Of a stretch of DNA of 64,000 nucleotides, positions 1,590 to 63,769 are shown piece by piece. The stretch is from NCBI GenBank assembly GCA_963920765.1, contig OY987251.1, positions 11,659,219 to 11,723,218 on the forward strand, given 5' to 3'. The notes beneath the pieces are model-generated. The model saw only the letters and a program-made list of their open reading frames with translations, had not been told where the DNA came from and searched no databases. A program made the translations under genes and the position numbers. The first letter of the stretch is position 1, and the number at the start of each line of letters is the position of its first letter. This DNA is from Ulota crispa (lineage: Eukaryota > Streptophyta > Bryopsida > Orthotrichales > Orthotrichaceae).

Positions 1590-4500
1590 CTAATTGTACA
1601 CCATGTACTTGGGTGTCGCACTAAACTTCTGGTAACCTTTAATGACCTTATTGACAGCTTCCAAAAAGTCCTTCTCTGTCACAGTTTTCCTACGTGCTCG
1701 AATTGCGTACATGCCTGCCTCTGTACACACACTCCGAATATCGGCACCTGAATAACATAGTACTTGCATTAGTTTTGCAATTTCAGGTCACTGTTGACCA
1801 ACAGATATTCATAATTCTTCGCCCATCATTTTCATCGACGTCTTTATATACCATGTTGAGTCATGATATTCAAGTACTCTCCACTATCGTCTCTTTTACT
1901 GTCGTCACGTGAAAAATAACTCACCACCAAAAACCAAGCACAGACAGTCCCTAGCAACTACTTACACACTTGGAGACATATCAAACTTTTAATAAATCCA
2001 GTTACATGGTTTATGCGTACTCATACACCCAGTATCAAAGACATGTGTGAGATCCTGATACTATAAGTATCTACACTAAAAATGAGGCAATAGAAAGGGA
2101 TTGGATTAACCCTAAGGTTAGAATCCAGTGCACACATCAGCTTCTAAGAGAGCACAACAATTCACAGTCCTAGATAATAAGGGTCAAACCTGTGGAATTG
2201 GGGCAAAGGCGCGCAAGAAGCTCAAACCGAATGTCTCGCTCTATATTCATAGTCCGTGTATGGATCTTGAATATCTGGGTTCGACTCTCAAGATCAGGTA
2301 ACCCAAACTCCACCTTACGATCCAATCGACCTGGTCGTAAGAGGGCTGGATCTAGCGTATCAGGTCTGAAAAAATACCAAATTACTCTTAGTACTGATTT
2401 GATAAACCTACTTGCTTGCCTACATGAAAGATAACAATACCGCTCGCATCAATTTGATCGTATGAATATTCACTAACTATTTGCGTTGCAAAGGAGCAGC
2501 ATCTGTATGTATGCTTGCAATGTAAACATAACTAAATGCGATACTAATTCCTCATTGTGTATTTACAAGTGCTACAGCTACTTTACAGATTTATTACATA
2601 ATATTACAGCAAATAAAATCTTTAACAATACAGGAGGAGTTTACCTATTGGTTGCCATCAATACTTTAATGTTGCCACGAGCATCAAAACCATCAAGCTG
2701 GTTGACTATTTCAAGCATCGTCCTTTGAACCTCATTGTCACCTCCTGAACCATCGTCAAACCGAGCACCTCCAATGGCATCGACCTCGTCAAAAAACACA
2801 ATGCAAGCCTTCTTCGAACGAGCCATCTGCGCAAGCGTACCATAAATAAGAGGCAGTTGCAACTGAGTTGCAAGAAAACATACGAATCTACATCTAAATA
2901 AACAAACACTACGTCGGCATGATAATGATTACATAAATGGGATTCAAAGACACTAGATTTCAATCATTGAGCAAGTTTGACCATCTGCAATGCAATGTAG
3001 TCATAGCAGGTAAGGCACGAGAAAAACTCTTCATGACCAACCAATACCAAATTTGATAGACATGGAAAGATTAGCATTAATATTACCTGAAAAAGTTCAC
3101 GAACCATCCGAGCTCCCTCTCCTACATATTTCTGAACAAGTTCGCTGCCAATAACACGAATGAAGCAAGCATCCGTCCTATTTGCAACGGCTCTGGCTAA
3201 CAACGTCTTGCCAGTTCCAGGAGGGCCATAGCAAAGAACTCCTTTGGGCGGGTCAATTCCTAGTTTTACAAACTTCTCAGGATGCAACATTGGCAACTCC
3301 ACCACCTGTTGAAGACAACCATGGGATTTCCGTGTATCAGACTAGGTAGCAATCTGATGCAATAACGACTTAAAACCCATGCCATGTACCTACAAAGCAT
3401 CATCAGTGTTGCACCTAACACATTATATAATTCTATGACATTACAGTAGCACAATCTGTAGGTATAATAGTAGCAACATCACATACAGATCCAATCTATC
3501 CCCAAAAAAGGAAGAATATTTCAATAAAAGAAATCTACAAGATATATAGAGGATACACTACAGATACACTGACCTCACGCATCTTTTCTATTTGTTCTTT
3601 ACAGCCACCAATGTCATTGTAAGTGACATCTGGCTTTTCCTCTACCGTCATCATTGTGACACTTGGGTCGATCTTAGGTGGCAACGGAATCTGAATTTGA
3701 TACTTGTTTCGATCTACCCTGTACATGTCAATAGACACTAATTACGTAAAATCTTGACCAGAACACCAGCTTTAAATCACCATCACCTGACTTAACTGGA
3801 GCAATAGATACAACCTTAACATAAAAGCCATGGGCCTGAAAGGCATGTTAAAACAATGACTAGATCAAGGGGCCTCATTCAGCTAAAATAAGCTGGAATA
3901 GAATGTCGAGAAGACTTACCCAACACGCATACCCTCCTCTATGTCTGTTGGAGAGACCTTGTCGCCCAATCCAACGACAAACTGCCAAAACATCGAACAC
4001 ATACTTAAAGATCAAGTGTTGAATGAACCTAGAAAAAGAAAGAACCCTAACAGCATATCAGTCGAACAAATCATGTCCAGCAACTCGCATCAACTATTCA
4101 TGATTAAATGAGACAAATAGAATTCAGTTTCCGACTCATGGAACAAAAACTCAGCAGTGATGCAGGTCTGGTGACGACAAAAAAAGGGCTTTTAGAACAT
4201 ATTGTATATAGGCAACGATGAGAATATTATCGTTGCCTTAGAGAAGCTATTCTCTTATTAGTAGAAGAATATAAGACGAGCAAAATTTAAATTGTTCGTT
4301 AATAGTTTCTTATATTGTAGAAGCAATATAATACCTTAGCAATCTGCTTCACATTGATAACATACTTGGAGTCTTCAGTATTGGCGTTGATAATTTTTGT
4401 ACACCTAGCGACCTGTTAGAAGCAGTAAAATGAGATACAAATATCCAATTAACATCTGTGAAGAAGCAGATTTCATAAAAACTCAAGCTTTTCCCAAATA

Positions 4501-7005
4501 AAATGCCAACAAAACATGCATAGAAATGGGAGCTTCATTTACCTGCAATGGTTGTTCTTCTTGCATCATCTGCTTATCTGAAACAAGATCCCATTGACTA
4601 GGCACTGCCAAACCAGTGTCTGATTCCTTGATTCCTGCTCAGAGGATAAAAAGGCTGGCTGTCAGAAGCCAGCAAACGTTTGCCAACATTTCAGGGAATA
4701 TGGCCATGAATGGGTATTCCTAACAAATAAAAGTATCGACTACTGATTGCACATCATTGGGGAAAAAGGTTTCAGCAAAGTTGTCCACTTTCCACGCAGA
4801 GAAGCGATGGAAATTCCATTCTAATATTGTACTGCAATCGCATGCATATGTTAATTACCAGAAATCATGATTTCATGTGTTACAAGCGGTGGAAAACATA
4901 AGCATACCACACAAGTCATTGACCTTCTTAGCCATCTCTTTGATGTCTTTCTCGGTTTTCTTGATAAGGTTTGCATATGGACCCAAGCCCTGCAACAGCA
5001 AACGTCCACAACATTATTAAACGAGAGTTATCTATTTTCAAAGTCGATCCGAAGCAGGCCAGAATTCAACAAGCTAAACCTTAAACCTCGGAAAAATCCT
5101 GAACAACATTTGATAGAAGCAGTAATGCTTCACAGCATTGGTTTCGCATGAAAAATCCACAGAAACATCCAGCACACGGAGAAAAATTACCGCTGTAAGT
5201 ATCTCGAACGCAGAGTGGTAAAACCCTCAATCATAGGAAGCAAACTACCCCTAGATAGAGAATTATATGAACGACAATTTAAGCACTTTAATCCACAAGA
5301 GTGTGGTTTTTGGGATATGCACGATGCGGTGGATAAACATTCGAGTAAAAAAGCCAAATCTATGAAAATCGAATTTTATTACTACGTGTGAATTTCTTAT
5401 TCAATTTCAAAGGGGAGATTGTAGACCACTACTTGTGAATAATGAACCCCCATTTCTATTCAAAGATCAGTGGCCACAGACATTCAAATCACGTTATACT
5501 CACACCACTTGCTCGTTGGCCCCGGCCAATTGCAGGAATAGATGACTCGCTGTTGGTAATAGTAACCACTATAGGAGACGAGACAGGAACAGATCCCAAA
5601 CAGTTTTAGTTCTGGTCGTTACAACTATTGATTCTGAATTAAAATAAAGTACTTGGGTGCAAACAATGTCATCTCTTACAGAACTACTACGACTGCAAGC
5701 CATCGACCGTGTGCAAACGAACCTTTTCACAGGATGACCTAAACCCTAAATTACTAGAATCAACACTAAATTTAGGAAATAAAAAATCCTACTGCAAAAA
5801 CATCTGCAGAACAACATAGTGCAAACAATCCGCGTGCAATCTAAACATACATCACAGCTTGCCTGCATAGAATTATGAGCGCCACTTACCACAAAGCCGA
5901 TTCAACACCTGATCTATCTAGGGTTACAAAAGTAGTAGGAGTACCAATGTCCTTTCCAAATAACCAAGCACCGCCAACAGAAACAAACAGATAATCTTTC
6001 CTAACGACCACTCCAGAACCTCAGCTCAAATGCCAACGTTCAAAAACGACAGCACAAGCACATGAACAACAATCAGACCGCGCAACTGAAGATTTTAACC
6101 AACTCTCTAATGCCATCACAAAGGTAGCGTTCACAATAAGACTAGACAAAGCGATCCTCACACTACCAAAATCACCGTGATTATTTTAATTGTATTAAAC
6201 TGCTTAGCACAATACTGTCTTCACAGGAATTCAATTTGAACATTCCTGTAGTACAGGGCATTTTTTTCTGGCAACACCGACATTTCTAGTCCAATCACAG
6301 GTCGGCCCTCCAGATTTTCACAAACCTGATTGGATTAAATCTATCGGTGTCGCCAGAGTTGTGCGAAAATTCGGTCACCCGAGCCACGAGATACCACAAA
6401 GCCAATTCATCACCCGATCTAACCAATCACAAAACTCGTCGTTCCATTCGAAACATCCACGCACCAGCACCAGAATCGCAAATATTTACCTGAATAAATC
6501 AGCGCTAAAAAGATGCACCGTACCCTCCAAACCTCTCAAATCCCAAATCCAAAGTAGAAAAAAAGCTATCGCTATATCGAAAGCAAAGATACAAAGCTCA
6601 TGGCGAAAACAAAACGATGCTGCCATAGCTAAAAACTTATGAAACTGAGAAAATGTTGTTGAAGGAGACTCCTACTTTAAATCTCCATAACCTTAGCTCA
6701 ATGAAGAAAAAAAAGAAAAAAAGAAAATCCATAACCTTAGCTCAATGAAGAAGAAAAAGAGCGTAAGCACATGGACGACTGCCTTGCAATTGAAGACATC
6801 AACCGATTGTCTGATTCCATTAGAATAAACAGCAAGCTCAGGACAAATGTGAAATGCGAAATTCGAGAAAGAGAGAAAGAGAGAATATTGATAAAGGGAG
6901 AGAGTAGAAATGGAGACGTACGTAGGTTTTGAGGAGAGCGATGTCGTCCTCGTCGAGCGGAGGTGGATTCTTCTCCTTGAGGAGATCGTCGGCGATGTCC
7001 GCCAT
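1590..7005 (-). CDS. RPT1: 26S proteasome regulatory particle AAA-ATPase subunit RPT1 (subunit 7)
   Basis: RPT1 is one of six AAA-ATPases in the base of the 19S particle, which unfolds ubiquitinated substrates and feeds them into the 20S core. Ten exons on the minus strand, in order: 7005-6922, 4989-4908, 4634-4543, 4412-4335, 3981-3920, 3718-3574, 3305-3087, 2826-2645, 2365-2190 and 1747-1590. All junctions are GT-AG and all phases close, giving 425 aa, the usual RPT1 length. The N-terminus ([16 protein letters not shown], then [13 protein letters not shown]) matches plant RPT1. Exon 7 holds Walker A (GPPGTGKT). Exon 8 holds Walker B ([16 protein letters not shown]) and the sensor region LMATNR. 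The C-terminus ends [10 protein letters not shown], the RPT1 tail. Intron 1 is long (about 1.9 kb) and AT-rich, with a small tandem duplication near 6690-6765. Nothing looks broken. Confidence 0.97.
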
Positions 7006-7339
7006 GGCGTCGCAGAGCTCACCGGGCGAGCAGCGGCTATGGCGTGGCAGAAGGTGAGGAGTAGTGGAAATCGGGTTTAGGGTTTCGAGGTAGAACGGAG
7101 CAGAATAGTATTGTAGCTCGGTTGCGAGTGCTTTGCTTCGAAAGATGAAGAAGACGAAGACGACGACCGTGAAGCTGAAGCCATGAAGTTTTTTTTATTA
7201 AGATTTAATCATACTACTAAATCACAAGGAACTCTATAATATCACATCACGACGTTTGTAATATGTTCAAACCAGGAATTTTTTTTTTTTTTTTTCCAAC
7301 CAATGCTTGTGTGACATTCTTTGAAAATGGTTTGTAGCC

Positions 7340-7695
7340 TGCAGGCTTCATCTTTTTTTTTGGTTGGAGTTGAAGGTGACCCTTATGCATGGATTTTTGC
7401 AATATGATGGGATTTTTTTTGGAGGCAAAAAATATTCATTGACATTTTTTTGAAAATATCCAAATAATCATTGGCAATACTTAATTATTGCATGGAATTG
7501 TATTAGACAATACCTCAAATAATTTTAAAGTGATGGCATCAATTTTCAATTTGACAAGAATTTTATGGAAGCCTAGATTGCAATGCAATTTTCATTATTG
7601 CAAACTGGCATTTTTTGAAAAAAACCCCTCTTTTTTTTCTATAGGTTTGAAGCTCACCTTTTTTTTTTTGAGGCAATTGGGCCTTAAATTGCCAA
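7340..7695 (+). repeat. Dispersed repeat, copy 1 (second copy inverted at 42545-42905)
   Basis: About 350 bp here recur in reverse orientation at 42545-42905. Shared landmarks include TTGGTTGGAGTTGAAGGTG, a stretch ending in CAATACCTCAAATAATTTT, and GGTTTGAAGCTCACC. The copies differ by many small indels, especially in T and A runs. No terminal inverted repeat was found, so the class is unknown; a decayed retroelement fragment is possible. Confidence 0.75.
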
Positions 7696-15319: not shown

Positions 15320-15742
15320 AGGTATCGGCATTCATAAGCATCAAACTAACGATTTTGGAGTAGGAAATGAAAATCAATTGATGAACTTTGAAATAATATT
15401 GTCAAGTTAGAAAGAGGAAATTTAAAATATTGGCATCAATTTTAAAGTTTCAATTGCAGGCATTTGTTCACAAAGATTTTTCAAAGTCCAAATTCATTAA
15501 AATTGTATAGCTGTGTGTAAGAGATGCTAAAAACAATGCTTAAGGGTTTTTAAATAGTAAGATGGGGCACTCAAAATTATCATTTTAATCACCCAAAACC
15601 ACCACTTTGTTACCTATAACCATCACTCTGTCACCCACAACCATCACTTTGTCACCCATAACCATTTGATTTTATATTTGACAGTCCCTGATGGTGTCAG
15701 GTGATGCCCATGGGGACATGACAAAAATGGGTGTTGCTACCT
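15320..15742. mobile_element. TA-flanked inverted-repeat element, AGGTA...TACCT family (long form)
   Basis: The left end is AGGTATCGGCATTCATAAGC and the right end ATGGGTGTTGCTACCT, with TA on both sides. The interior matches the element in the AIM24 intron (44601-45008) along its length: GATTTTGGAGTAGGAAA, TTGATGAACTTTGAAA, AAAGTTTCAATTGCA, and repeated CCATCACTTTGTCACC motifs. It is non-coding. The TA target site fits a Tc1/mariner-type non-autonomous element. Confidence 0.85.
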
Positions 15743-24932: not shown

Positions 24933-25265
24933 AGGTACTAACAGTTCAACATCCATAACCATCATTGTACCCATAACCATCACTTCTAAAATCTTGGAAA
25001 ATCTATGGAAGTGAATAGATGTAATTACAAGGATGTACAACATGTGAACATGAAACCTTAGTGTTGATATTAGGTGCAATTGCAATTGGCTGTTTAAAAA
25101 TTGACAACTTACTCTCATAGTATCCAAATAATACATTCAAAAGTGCAAACTCCTCATAATTTTTCTCTTGCTAATCCTATAATTTGCTAAATGTTTAAAC
25201 TAAATGTTTATTAATAATCATCATGCTCAAAACCCTTAACTTGGCGGTTATGGGTGCTGCTACCT
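24933..25265. mobile_element. TA-flanked inverted-repeat element, AGGTA...TACCT family (medium form)
   Basis: The left end is AGGTACTAACAGTTCAAC and the right end TTATGGGTGCTGCTACCT, with TA on both sides. Read in reverse it matches the element at 46070-46267: AAGGGTTTTGA then CATGATGA, TAGCAAATTATAGGATT, and AGATTTTCCAAGATTT. The 46070 copy is an internally deleted version of this one. Confidence 0.8.
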
Positions 25266-44456: not shown

Positions 44457-45956
44457 ATGGCGAGCTCGTTGCAGCAATTCGTAGCAGACACGCGGGACCA
44501 GCAGCAGCAGAATCAGAATCAAGGTGCGGCGTTCGCGGTGGAGAAGCAGTGCTTTCTGCAAGTGAACCTCGGCGTGCCGAGCTCGACAGGCGGGGTACTA
44601 AGGTAGGAGCATCCAAGCGTGAAATTAAGGATTTTGGAGTAGGAAAATCAGTTGATGAACTTTGAAAATTAAAAAAAAATAGGGTTAAGCTAAGAAGAGG
44701 GAAATCAAAAATATTTGGTATCAATTTGAAAGTTTCAATTGCAAGTATTTGTTTATAAAGATTTTTCAAAGTCCTAAATCATTGAGATTGTATAGTAGTG
44801 TGTAGGAGATGGTCTTTAGTGTGCTCATACGCTCATAACACTAAGTAACTTGAGGAGTTCTTAAATAGTGAGATGGGGTACTCAAAACGGTCATGCCAAA
44901 ACCATCACTTCATGATCCATAACCATAACCAATTTTTCAGTATTTGTTAATCTTGGTAGTGTCAAGGCATGTTAATGGAGACACCGGTGAGCATGGGTGC
45001 TCCTACCTTAAATCACTGAAATTGTATAGTTGTGTACAAGAAATGTCTTTAGTGTGCTCATACGCTCATAACATTAACTTGAGTTCTTAAATAGTGAGAT
45101 GGGACACTCAAAACTGTCATGCCAGTCACCCAAAACCATCACTTTGTCACCTAAAACTATCACTTTGTCACCTAAAACCATCACTTTATCACCCTTAACC
45201 AAATTTTTTTTGTTGTAATTGTCAGTGACAAACATCACTAACACAAGTAAGTTATCGTGGATGGGACACTGTCTAACTAACTGTGAGGGGGTGCTCCTAC
45301 GCTTCAGCCACGTGTGGATGAAGACGGGGTCCATGGTAGCGTACCAGGGCGACTGCAAGTTCGAGCGAGAAGGCATGCTGGACCACGGCTTCAGCAACAT
45401 GCTCAAAAAGCAGTTCACAGGCGAGGGCGCCTCACTCGTCAAAGCCTCCTCCAAGACCCGAGCGCAGCTCTACTTAGCCGACAACAGCAAGCGAGTCACA
45501 GTGCTCTACCTGCAAGGCGAGTCCATCGTCGTGAACGGCGACGATCTGCTAGCGTTCGAACCGAGCGTGTCGCACAAGATCACCATGATGAAGAAGCTGT
45601 CGTCGATCGTATCCGGGGGGCTGTTCAATGTGAGGTTGCAAGGGCAAGGCTTCGTGGCCATTCTGAGTCACGGCCAGCCTCTCACTCTGCTGGTGGCGCC
45701 CGGGTACCCGCCTGTTTTTACTGACCCGCAAGCCACGGTGGCGTGGTCGGGGGATCTGGTGCCTGATTTTAAGTCGGATGTTGGGTTGAGGACGTTGCTT
45801 GGGCGAGGCAGTGGGGAGAGTTTTCAGATGAAGTTCGATGGCAGTCGTGGGCAGGGGTTCGTTGTTGTGCAACCGCATGAGGAGATTTCTGCGCCCACGT
45901 CGTCCAGTAGTAGCTCTGGCTCCAGTGGCTCCGGGCTCACCAACCTCCTCATGTAA
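44457..45956 (+). CDS. AIM24 / DUF124-family protein
   Basis: AIM24-family proteins are beta-rich proteins found from bacteria to mitochondria and plastids; the yeast member affects mitochondrial inner-membrane organisation, and the biochemical role is not established. Two exons: 44457-44602 and 45308-45956, joined AG/C to give a serine, 264 aa in total. Exon 1 reads MASSLQQFVADTRDQQQQ, then AFAVEKQCFLQVNLGVPSST. Exon 2 reads HVWMKTGSMVAYQGDCKFER, MLDHGFSNMLKKQFTGEG, LQGESIVVNGDDLLAFE, GGLFNVRLQGQGFVAILSHG and PVFTDPQATVAWSGDLVPDF, the usual order for the family. The C-terminus is a Ser/Gly run. No transit peptide is obvious. Exon 2 is distinctly GC-richer than the surroundings. The sole intron is almost entirely a transposon-like element. 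Confidence 0.9.
44601..45008. mobile_element. TA-flanked inverted-repeat element forming the AIM24 intron
   Basis: The left end AGGTAGGAGCATCCAAGC begins two bases before the splice junction; the right end is GAGCATGGGTGCTCCTACCT, with TA on each side. The interior matches the 15320-15742 element. From 45009 a second copy of the right-hand half follows (TAAATCACTGAAATTGTATAG and onward) and ends GGGGGTGCTCCTAC at about 45300, seven bases before the splice acceptor. The intron is thus a composite of this element. Confidence 0.88.
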
Positions 45957-46033
45957 CTTAGAGCATCCCCTGTAACTTAGAGCATCCCCTGTAACTTAGA
46001 GCATCCCCCTCCTCATGTACTTTAGAACATCCC
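45957..46033 (+). repeat. Short tandem repeat after the AIM24 stop codon
   Basis: The unit CTTAGAGCATCCCCTGTAA occurs three times, the last degraded, starting at the stop codon itself. The stop-proximal sequence CTCCTCATGTA is repeated once more further on. It probably arose by slippage in the 3' untranslated region. Confidence 0.85.
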
Positions 46034-46069
46034 CAATCCAGCCGTAACAGAGGCACGGAAAAGCATGTA

Positions 46070-46267
46070 AGGTAGGAGCACCCATAAGCGTCAAACGAAG
46101 GGTTTTGAACATGATGAGTATCAATAAGCAGCTAGCAAATTATAGGATTCTATTAAGAACAAAAAAAAATGAGTTTGCATTTTTGAATGTACTCACTTTC
46201 ACAGATTTTCCAAGATTTCAGAGATGACGGTTATGGGGACACTGACGCTTATGGGTGTTCCTACCTT
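46070..46267. mobile_element. TA-flanked inverted-repeat element, AGGTA...TACCT family (short form)
   Basis: The ends are AGGTAGGAGCACCCATAAGC then GTCA at the left and TGACGCTTATGGGTG then TTCCTACCT at the right, about 25 nearly exact complementary bases. The interior matches parts of the element at 24933-25265 read in reverse, with a deletion of about 135 bp. It sits about 115 bp after the AIM24 stop, probably in the 3' untranslated region. Confidence 0.85.
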
Positions 46268-60130: not shown

Positions 60131-63100
60131 TTAGACAAAAGGTCTGGGACAGGTCCACTTGAGATGTGGAACGCAAGCCAAGTAATGGCACCAGTGGCAG
60201 CCTTTGTTGGCCTTGATGTCGAGGAATAGAATCACACATCCAGCAATCAACAATCCCAGCAAGATAAAAAATGCCAGCACTCGCAGCAGCTTCTGTGATT
60301 TCGTGTACATTCGCACAGGTGGCAAGTCAGAGTGTTCGTTGTTCACCTCATACGCTTCCAATTGAGTTAAGTTGCGTGTGTCCTTGTATCCTAGCTGGGG
60401 CCGCAATAGCAGCACAAACCCCAGCAACAACCCGATTAGAAACCCACCTACATTGGCGAAGTTGTCAACCTGCGAACACAGTGGAGGAGATCCAACAATT
60501 AGTGAATTTTATAACCAATGAAAACATGAAAAGTGACAACATAACAAGATAAAAGAAATTTGTGGATACCCCTGAGGTTTTTCCATATTTGTATAGATAG
60601 CTTTGGTCTTTCAGAAATAGCACAAATATCTTTGGACCATAATTATCAGACATTTGTTGTGCACATTACTTCATGGCCAATAATAAAGTATGGCCAATGT
60701 TAAAGTAAGGGTTGCGTTAGAGCAGAAAAGAAGTACCGTGCGCAAAAGCAAGAATGATGTGGCATGCACGATAAAACAAACAAACGCCTGAAAACTATGG
60801 TTCAAATTAGGTTATTTGTGCACTTTCTGAAGAACCAGGGGTGTCTCTACAAATACTGCAAATTTCAGGGGTATTTATCAAATTTTCTAATTACAAAAAA
60901 TAGGACATGCCTGACTAGGGTAACTCCTTGCAACGGGATAACTTTTCAGTTCATTTTGGTATGTGCCTAAGAGCATGTCAAAGACTGAAAAAGCCAGATG
61001 ATCACCGGTGGAGTTGAGAAAAACTGACCTGGGGCATGAGTCCGAATCCCACGCTGATCAAAGTAAACAGAATCAAGTCCACGAACTTGAACCCGCGCCG
61101 TCTGATCACGTTCCAGTTGATGAGCATGTCCGCAAGACAGGCACCGATCAGCCCCATCACCGCGCCTGAAGCTCCCGCAAACACTTGGTTCTGCACCAGA
61201 AGCGCCGACAAGACGCTCCCACCGAATCCTGAAACCACGTAGATTGCTAACAGCTTCAAAAAGCCGAAATTGAGTTCCACTCGCAACCCGATGATGAGGA
61301 GTGCCAGCAAGTTCAATATTAGCTGTAGCACACCACCGTTGATGAATATGGCTGATAACAGTCTCCACCCTTGGCCGCGGTGCACCACCCTGGTCAGATC
61401 AAACCCCAATTCATAATCAGCAATCATAATCAACTTAACCCTTAAACGACAAGAGGGCATTGTATATACACTGCCAGATAATGGGCATTTGTTACCAACA
61501 AAAGGTTGTAATTTGGGATCTCAAATAGCTCACTATGACCGCATGTATCTATTCTCCAACTTCTTTGTTGGTCTTAGATGTAATAAAGGTATGGATGCAT
61601 TCCAAATACAAGAAAAATACATCGTATTGTATTGGTCGCAAAGGGCTGCCTTGTCTTTTAAGGGTTAAGTGGCTAAAGAAAATAACACCATATTAGGTAA
61701 ATTGGGAGAAAAAGGTGTCCCACTTTGTTTTTCCCCAAACCCAAAAAGTTAGATTTGAAAGTATCAAATTCACTCTGAGTCACTAAAATTTTTTCCCTTG
61801 CAAAATCCCTCCTCTTAGGTGAGGACACGTGTGCAAAAAAAAATGTTAAGCTCAATTTGAAAAGATCACCTCAAACTTTTGAAAGCAAGTATGAAAGTCC
61901 CAAATTATACCCTTTTTCCCAATTTACCTAATATGGTGTTAAATACTACTAACCAGTGCAAGGTGTAAGAATTGAACTTCAACACTGTAATATTCATATT
62001 TTCATAGCTACATACAAAAAAAAAAAACTGATGAAAGATACTTGCTAAATGTGACCACAATTGTGAACGATGACCCTGGTATAAATTAACAACTTCACTT
62101 TTGATTGGATTTCGATTTAGGTAGGACTTTGGTGAAAAAGTTAGTTCTGAAGGATTAGTACACTGATTATTGCGTTCAGGTTGCCCACACTAATTCCTCG
62201 GTCTACAGTTTACACTAATATTCCAATAATTTTCGTCAATAATGATTGCAATGAACAATTTTCAAAAGGGCTTGCCAGCAACAACAAAGCTACAGAATAA
62301 CAAACTAACATGAAAAGGACATAAATCATGTGAACCTCTACAAATTAGACAGTTGCTTGCGTCTCCAAATGGCCAAGCAATGAGTCATAAGGTAACTTTT
62401 TCAGGAAAAGGTAACCTAATTGTGAAAGCAACCTAAATGTAATATTCATTATACATAATTTGTGCTGGAGTAAAATCCAACCTCGTGGTCACATGATTTT
62501 CACTCATCATACTGCTGAAATCACAATGACCTTTATACTATCACATCTTGCCTTTTGTAACATCACCACTCCAATCTCTGTGATACTATCACACAAATAC
62601 AATTTGAGAAGTTTACTGAAATTTCAACTTTGCATTCTATATAACATAAGAAAATCCTAGCTAATAATTTCTGACTACAATATGTAACATAACAAGCACC
62701 AACATCCACTCATTTCCTCAATAAAAAGTGCAAAAATTAGAAGTTGTTATTCATTAAACTGGGAAAAAACACTTTCTCAAAACATATTTTGGAAATAATG
62801 AATTTCATATTTGAGAGAATATTCCCATGATTTGAAATGAATATTTTAGACAATTCCTGTAAGAAATTTCATCATTGATGTAAAGTCTAAAATGCAGAAA
62901 TCATCACAATCATAATGTTCACTCAAAATCACTAAAGAAAAACTCTTAAACATGAAAAAATCCAAAAGTTCCAACGTGCAGGTTTTTTCCCAATTTAATA
63001 AAATAAAGTTGTTAATACCATATTTGTTAAATTGGGAAAAACAGTACATTTTGGGACTTTTGAAGGTTTTAGATGACCACCTAAAACCGAACTCGCAATA

Positions 63101-63769
63101 TTTTTTTGGTAAACGTGCCCTCACTTGAGAGGAGAAATTTGCAAGGAAAAAATTTTAATGACTCATATTGAGTCTAAGACATTCAAGAGTACAAAATGGT
63201 ACCTCTATTTTTCCCAATTTAATAAAATAAAGCTGTATAGTTACTGTAAAGGCTTACAGCTAAGTATAAAGTGCAGAGAATTTATGTGTTAAAGTTTTGT
63301 AGTACCTGGTGCTTTCGAGGGCGCCCCACTTCAAGAGAAACCGCCTCTGAGGTCCCAACATGGGATTCTCATCCCAAGGCTGAAACGAGAGCGGCTTCAA
63401 CCACTTCCCAACACACTTCTTCCCCGCAGGCAGAACACGACGAGGACAATCATTAGAGTACATCATAAGCACAAACACAACGATGAGGGCGATGACAATG
63501 GCAGGCGTGGCGATGGGGATGTAGTGGTACTTCCGGAACAAGATGGGGTGATGCTTCTCCGGCAGTGGCGACGGGGGCTCGAACTGGTGCTCGTCGTGGT
63601 CGTGTACTCGAAGTCGGAAGTCCGGCGCTGATTGCTGTTGTTGATGCTGATGTTGATGTTGTTGTTGCTGGACATCACGTAAGGATTGGGTGGTGCGCAC
63701 GGAGCCGAAGGGGCGCTCTCGAGGTCGGTCCATGTTCCACGCCGGGTTCTCGATCACGTTCATAGGCAT
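60131..63769 (-). CDS. Rhomboid-like membrane protein lacking the catalytic histidine (probable pseudoprotease)
   Basis: Rhomboids are intramembrane serine proteases with a Ser (TM4)-His (TM6) dyad. Three exons: 63769-63306, 61389-61029 and 60469-60131; GT-AG junctions, 387 aa. The cytosolic N-terminus is Gln/His-rich (QHQHQHQQQQ). TM1 is around AIVIALIVVFVLMM, followed by a Cys-containing loop. The core reads GQGWRLLSAIFINGGVLQL, GASGAVMGLIGACLADML and, at the TM6 site, VDNFANVGGFLIGLLLGF. The C-terminus is Cys-rich (CHWCHYLACVPHLKWTC), as in plant RBL proteins. The Ser of GASG is kept. The TM6 His (VDNxAHxGG in active plant RBLs) is Asn, and the TM2 motif HGGxxH is NGGVLQ. All catalytic and oxyanion histidines are therefore absent, although the frame is open and the fold intact. 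Function is probably non-proteolytic (client binding or trafficking), by analogy with iRhoms. Confidence 0.93.
60552..60887. mobile_element. 336-bp long-inverted-repeat element in rhomboid intron 2
   Basis: The left arm is AAAGAAATTTGTGGATACCC then CTGAGGTTTTTCCATATTTG; the right arm is AAATACTGCAAATTTCAGGG then GTATTTATCAAATTTTC. TA lies on both sides. It is related to 51814-52133, including the inner CAGAAATAGCACAAATA motif. Confidence 0.8.
61439..61664. mobile_element. 226-bp TTAA-flanked element in rhomboid intron 1
   Basis: TTAA lies at 61435-61438 and 61665-61668. The ends are CCCTTAAACGACAAGAG and CCTTGTCTTTTAAGGG. The interior is colinear with 48768-48998 (TGGATGCATTCCAAATACAA, GGTCGCAAAGGGCTGCC). 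It lies about 45 bp from the exon 2 acceptor. Confidence 0.9.
61683..61942. mobile_element. Inverted-repeat element with ACACCATATT arms (copy 2)
   Basis: The left arm, TAACACCATATTAGGTAAAT then TGGGA, complements the right arm, TCCCAATTTACCTAATATGG then TGTTA. The flanks allow a TA or TAA target. More divergent arms of the same type occur at about 62745-63016 and 63013-63240 in the same intron. Confidence 0.75.
62177..62436 (-). mobile_element. Inverted-repeat element with GGTTGCC/GGCAACC ends (copy 3)
   Basis: The left side contains CAGGTTGCCCACACTAATT and the right side AAGCAACCTAAATG. It also carries GGCCAAGCAATGAGTCATAA, the reverse of the motif in the 16829 copy. It lies in rhomboid intron 1. 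A partial copy is near 41460-41550. Ends are approximate. Confidence 0.5.

Follow-up and report, generated by a model that had tools for sequence, protein, structure and literature searches.

The window analysed here is a stretch of 64,000 nucleotides from Ulota crispa (contig OY987251.1, positions 11,659,219 to 11,723,218 of the forward strand), and it contains on its plus strand an AIM24 gene with a single predicted intron. The gene content of the genome agrees with a photosynthetic land plant: 56 matches are to chlorophyll-binding proteins and 25 to the NAC domain, a land-plant marker, many of the latter being fragments of exons. The coding part of exon 1 begins with the ATG at 44457 and extends over 44457..44602, while exon 2, including the stop codon, occupies 45308..45956; both align with a paralogue, and the predicted protein carries the Pfam domain PF01987 (E 6e-31). 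The intron is accordingly placed at 44603-45307, with the G of the donor GT at 44603, and the 3′ edge of exon 1 reads ...GTA CTA AG|GTAGGAGC. The candidate splice donor (44603..44604, AAG|GTAGGA) is a prediction that agrees at 7/9 positions with the donor consensus. Read without splicing, the frame stops at codon 50. Among 53 frame-compatible donor/acceptor pairs ranked by a simple consensus score, the predicted pair 44603/45307 takes second place; the pair ranked first, 44524/45225, would retain approximately 80 bases of the intron and lose approximately 26 codons of exon 1 that are alignable to the paralogue.

The spliced product aligns with the paralogue at 190 of 229 identical residues and is gap-free across the junction (GGVLSHVW / GGILNQVW). 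Both exons are under constraint. Exon 1 shows dN 0.19 and dS 1.35 over 46 codons (dN/dS ~0.14) and exon 2 shows dN 0.10 and dS 1.05 (dN/dS ~0.09), ratios that span all the time since duplication rather than just the time since the insertion discussed below; over the whole 229 codons dS is 1.10 and dN 0.118. Proteins encoded at 25 loci of bacteria and archaea share 38-58% identity with AIM24, mostly near full length; because this search covered prokaryote genomes only, the likeness does not show horizontal transfer. These 25 homologues leave the junction undecided, as the linker varies among them (one locus, L029, was compared in part). A short repeat, TGTAACTTAGAGCATCCCC, is present in about four copies at 45944-46034, around and past the AIM24 stop codon, and no RNA families were detected in the 64-kb window.

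In sequence alignment, a single transposon family accounts for nearly the whole length of the AIM24 intron. Short indels aside, positions 44601 to 45303 align with this family, followed by just TCAG and then exon 2. In the preferred alignment, the intron boundary lies two bases inside the element boundary on the left and four bases outside it on the right. A target-site TA (44599..44600) directly precedes the terminus AGGTAGGAGC of a full-length plus-strand element, E1 (44601..45008, by alignment with the family), the terminal inverted repeats (TIRs) of which read AGGTAGGAGC.../...GCTCCTACCT. The inverted arms of E1 (44599-44618 and 44991-45010) are 90% complementary, and exon 1 closes with the two bases (AG) that open the element terminus. 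As the original prediction had it, the intron begins two bases inside a TA-flanked inverted-repeat element, the terminus meets the exon edge as AG|GTAGGAG and forms the predicted donor there, and the remainder of the intron consists of the element and a second copy of its right half. The spacing that it gave, seven bases between this second copy and the acceptor, has to be corrected: in the preferred alignment the copy extends to 45303, which leaves four bases (TCAG) ahead of exon 2, and seven is obtained by counting from 45300.

The second copy is the right half of another element, E2 (45009..45303, plus strand), which matches the right half of E1 at 81% identity over 144 nt and closes with GCTCCTACgCT, an end that bears one extra base. 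With indels not counted, E1 diverges from the family consensus by 7.2% in its left part and 10.8% in its right part, and E2 by 9.4%, values similar to those of other copies. The right TA of E1 (45009..45010) is at the same time an internal TA of E2 (CC-TA-AATCA). Because the E2 right half starts exactly at this internal TA, the arrangement is most simply explained by insertion of E1 into E2, after which recombination between direct repeats would have left just one of the two left halves. Two other origins were considered and are disfavoured. A double element that was already mobile as one unit finds no counterpart among the 39 other scored places, none of which spans it (40 of 2,588 candidates were scored). 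Tandem duplication within the intron agrees poorly with the distance between E1 and E2, approximately 19% over 144 nt where each lies only ~7-11% from the consensus, and with the coincidence of the E1 right TA and the internal TA of E2.

Toward the 3′ end of the intron lies CTAACTAAC (45273..45281, plus strand), 27-31 nt 5′ of the intron end, which resembles the branch-site motif and may serve as the branch site. The family consensus carries CACTAAC at the corresponding position. The idea that every family copy brings a marked branch site was rejected, as the exact CTAAC is present in just 4/24 copies and CTRAY in 11/24. The final four bases of the intron (45304..45307) are read as the right target-site TA, now TC, followed by a putative target-derived acceptor AG, giving TTCAG|CC.

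The element family is abundant. Its 23-base left end, allowing up to two mismatches, has 7,575 matches in the 274.8 Mb genome against none for the reversed control; because some copies match at both ends, the copy number is estimated at ~3,800 to 7,575. Part of the AIM24 intron is matched at E <= 1e-81 in at least 39 further places (40 of the 2,588 candidates scored). A 421-bp consensus was built from 24 oriented copies at 22 loci, and these copies diverge from it by a median of 8.3% (range 4.3-24.2%). With TA on both flanks in 57 of 73 end pairs (two being the window's own), inverted termini, short length and high copy number, the family fits the class of TA-target miniature inverted-repeat elements, and its mobility, proposed from three related copies outside genes, is upheld by the end matches and flanking TAs. 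The three copies are all present on the plus strand of the window, and interior kinship is found for one: the member at 15320..15742 aligns in its interior at 70.5% over query positions 10-340, while the element at 24933..25265 and the short element of 197 bp just 3′ of AIM24 (46070..46266, with TA on the left side only) are shown to be related by their termini only. The 16-base terminus, at up to three mismatches, has eight occurrences in the window, where 0.59 are expected and 100 shuffles give at most three. Since the family ends, AG|GTAGGAG, are inverted repeats, insertion in either orientation supplies a donor-like site (7/9). A donor-like terminus may be common to several element families.

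The sole AIM24 paralogue found in the genome is situated on C6. It is without the element and has two introns of 337 and 1,274 nt, as read from the sequence. Intron 1 interrupts TTG AAC CAG|GTG TGG where the window reads CTA AG|..|C CAC GTG TGG, so that, in spliced coordinates, the paralogue intron lies 4 nt further downstream, and it is unrelated. An intron of unrelated sequence at the same position in distant plants had been named in the original prediction as a sign of an old intron invaded later, and half of that is found here: the paralogue intron is unrelated, but its position differs by 4 nt. Paralogue intron 1 was also considered as another repeat; a genome search that skips very common words matched only the intron itself and returned no second copy. 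The second intron of the paralogue leaves no trace in the alignment of the window gene, which does not have it. Within this second intron lies a different element (L023:1088-1413; TAAGGTAGGAGGCTTG.../...AGCCTCTTACCTTA), the end of which also begins AGGTAGGAG, and an element of the same kind recurs at L062:1922-2246.

The AIM24 paralogue and the paralogue of a rhomboid gene of the window are 0.6 Mb apart on C6, which suggests a segmental duplication; the best paralogues of the neighbouring FBPase gene are on C1 and C2, not C6. If the duplication was segmental, the window AIM24 probably once had both introns of its paralogue and lost them. The possibility that the window gene is a retrogene that re-gained an intron is weakened by the proximity of the AIM24 and rhomboid duplicates on C6, the FBPase gene notwithstanding. 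The window rhomboid gene, on the minus strand, has an intron of ~1.9 kb (~61390-63305) with splice sites placed by eye, and its closest paralogue (C6:5385988-5386671) is one open frame of 374 aa that does not contain it. Introns thus turn over between these duplicates. As a second element-made case the rhomboid intron was rejected; it has repeats inside, and none was seen at its donor.

On balance, the AIM24 intron probably arose when a TA-target miniature transposon landed in an exon that was until then uninterrupted. The target would have been GTAC-TA^AGCCAC. Upon insertion, the element end AGGTAGGAGC would have supplied the donor AG|GTAGGAG, the opposite end a pyrimidine-rich stretch (GCTCCTACCTTA) and the interior a branch-like CTAAC, and the acceptor AG, the sole missing signal, would have come from the target itself (TA-AG). 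Splicing would then remove the element together with one copy of TA-AG and rebuild CTA AGC CAC exactly, leaving the protein unchanged. Later, a second copy would have landed inside the first, at a TA, one of the two resulting left halves would have been lost, and the acceptor would have drifted from TTAAG to TTCAG. At the level of sequence and frame, removal of the element restores the AIM24 reading frame, and we infer that it is spliced out in vivo. The observed right end is GCTCCTAC(g)CT-T[C]-AG, where GCTCCTACCT-TA-AG is expected, so that a lossless insertion needs one inserted base and one substitution there. TAAG is found at two of the 15 TA sites in the spliced AIM24 coding sequence, and CTA^AGC is one of these. 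Divergences of 7-11% from the consensus, set against a paralogue dS of 1.10, probably place the insertion long after the duplication.

An older intron may instead have stood at the position of the paralogue intron, with transposons inserted at its edges, the original sequence deleted between or next to them, the splice sites moved 4 nt upstream and the donor left inside the element end. We consider this somewhat unlikely, though it draws on the paralogue having, only 4 nt away, an unrelated intron that is unique in the genome search, and on a duplication that looks segmental, from an ancestor that probably had introns. Under pure gain the neighbouring paralogue intron is a coincidence, one made less surprising by the fact that just two lossless TAAG sites are available, given selection for harmless insertions. 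Replacement of an old intron, for its part, requires that intron's total loss as well as two compensating shifts of exactly 4 nt, either of which alone breaks the frame; the window copy also lacks the second intron of the paralogue, which makes the loss of more than one intron plausible in any case. What favours gain is the placement of AGCCAC, which sits downstream of the element and contiguous with GTGTGG in the window. It agrees with the end of paralogue exon 1, AACCAG, at 4/6 positions and with the end of the paralogue intron at 2/6. Since this counterpart of the paralogue exon 1 end lies downstream of the element, insertion is preferred over invasion of an old intron, which would need CCAC to match the exon 1 end CCAG by chance (3/4; probability ~0.05, or ~0.04 for the 6-mer match).

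The exact target may also be drawn differently, as CTA^CGC TTC AGC, in which case the element would have lost five bases from its right end, the first downstream AG would have become the acceptor, and Arg-Phe would have been removed from the protein. The right end is then accounted for by a single 5-base deletion, the flanks remain in frame once joined, and the target CTA^CGCTTCAG scores 75, 69 and 74 against 72, 66 and 75 for the lossless target, a small advantage under two of the three gap settings. Of the 15 TA sites, four are frame-compatible with the first AG under such a target and three more with the second. We nevertheless regard this target as improbable, because the joined exon would carry two codons that the paralogue does not have, at the very place where splicing removes them. 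Most improbable of all is that the element is retained, with the gene broken or an alternative start in use. Splicing is a prediction, and the exon 2 frame is open upstream as far as 45219; against this, both exons are constrained (as measured since duplication), the frame is intact despite elements 7-11% from their consensus, and the lone in-frame Met codon in 45219-45308 would be an unconserved start.

The AIM24 intron works like a transposon-derived introner, judging from its sequence architecture. Introners with features of DNA transposons have been surveyed (Gozashti et al. 2022; PMC9860276), and that survey reports none in land plants. As in the introners described there, one splice site is predicted to lie in the AIM24 element and the other to come from the target, intron ends coincide with element ends, and TIRs are found in many of the families. 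The cases described have target duplications of 3-9 bp in contrast to the TA of the AIM24 element. Introner families also make many introns, whereas none of the 72 other end pairs examined in this family appears intron-like between GC-rich exons. Single transposon insertions spliced as introns of plant genes provide another parallel. One review lists 35 events of transposon insertion, from Oryza, Drosophila, Oikopleura and Zea, and transposon-made introns have already been reported from rice and maize (PMC3443670). The maize Ds and rice cases resemble AIM24, where splicing is predicted, in being one insertion spliced as an intron; they differ in that the AIM24 TIR is itself the predicted donor and the TAAG target makes the event lossless. 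The family further resembles Tc1/mariner-type miniature elements in its TA target duplication, TIRs, short length and high copy number, while moss Tc1-like ends are CAGT...ACTG as opposed to AGGTAGGAGC (PMC4054914). A further paper that names both introners and mosses only cites the 2022 survey (PMC10487979), PMC3488318 and PMC12550479 gave nothing decisive, and no description of introners in land plants was found in the open-licence literature searched, as far as its accessible text goes.

Whether the family makes introns repeatedly was approached through 70 element loci besides the window, chosen by similarity or exact ends, 53 of them from C1. Eleven of these gave no end pair; the other 59 and the window yielded the 73 end pairs, among them three pairs with a shared right end; decayed ends were missed. 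AIM24 is the sole pair with both flanks at GC >= 0.50, GC serving as a proxy for coding sequence. None of the 72 others, a sample of ~1-2% of copies, reaches this value on both sides, and one reaches 0.45. No coding exons split by an element at the exon edge were seen near the sampled elements, by eye and by GC; the gene pieces near them comprise an RdRP (Pfam), a MEI2-like gene (weak RRM_2) and, by eye, dehydrogenases, a Rab and a histone. In the MEI2-like gene, called by eye with a Pfam RRM_2 match below the cut-off, a family element lies within an apparent intron, shortly 5′ of the next exon (L004:1423-1824), and represents an ordinary intronic copy. With GC-rich sequence to both left and right in 0/72 other end pairs, it is not established that the elements form an introner family, and the label introner-type that the original prediction applied does not carry over in its strict, many-intron sense. 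By the rule of three, 0/72 sets an upper bound of ~4%, which leaves room for many intron cases among thousands of copies.

The origin of new spliceosomal introns is a long-standing question, and at the AIM24 locus an intron is still legible as a transposon. The gain model implies a contiguous ancestral exon resembling CTAAGCCAC. It also entails a simple rule, in which a TA^AG target combined with a donor in the element terminus predicts which insertions become introns harmlessly, and this rule is testable genome-wide on thousands of copies. On the sampled copies, the AIM24 intron looks like a single case so far. A broader reading, in which an abundant land-plant element that is donor-like at both ends makes lossless introns wherever it lands at TAAG on the coding strand, with AIM24 as one of several, seems unlikely at present; if true, land plants would have their first introner-like family.
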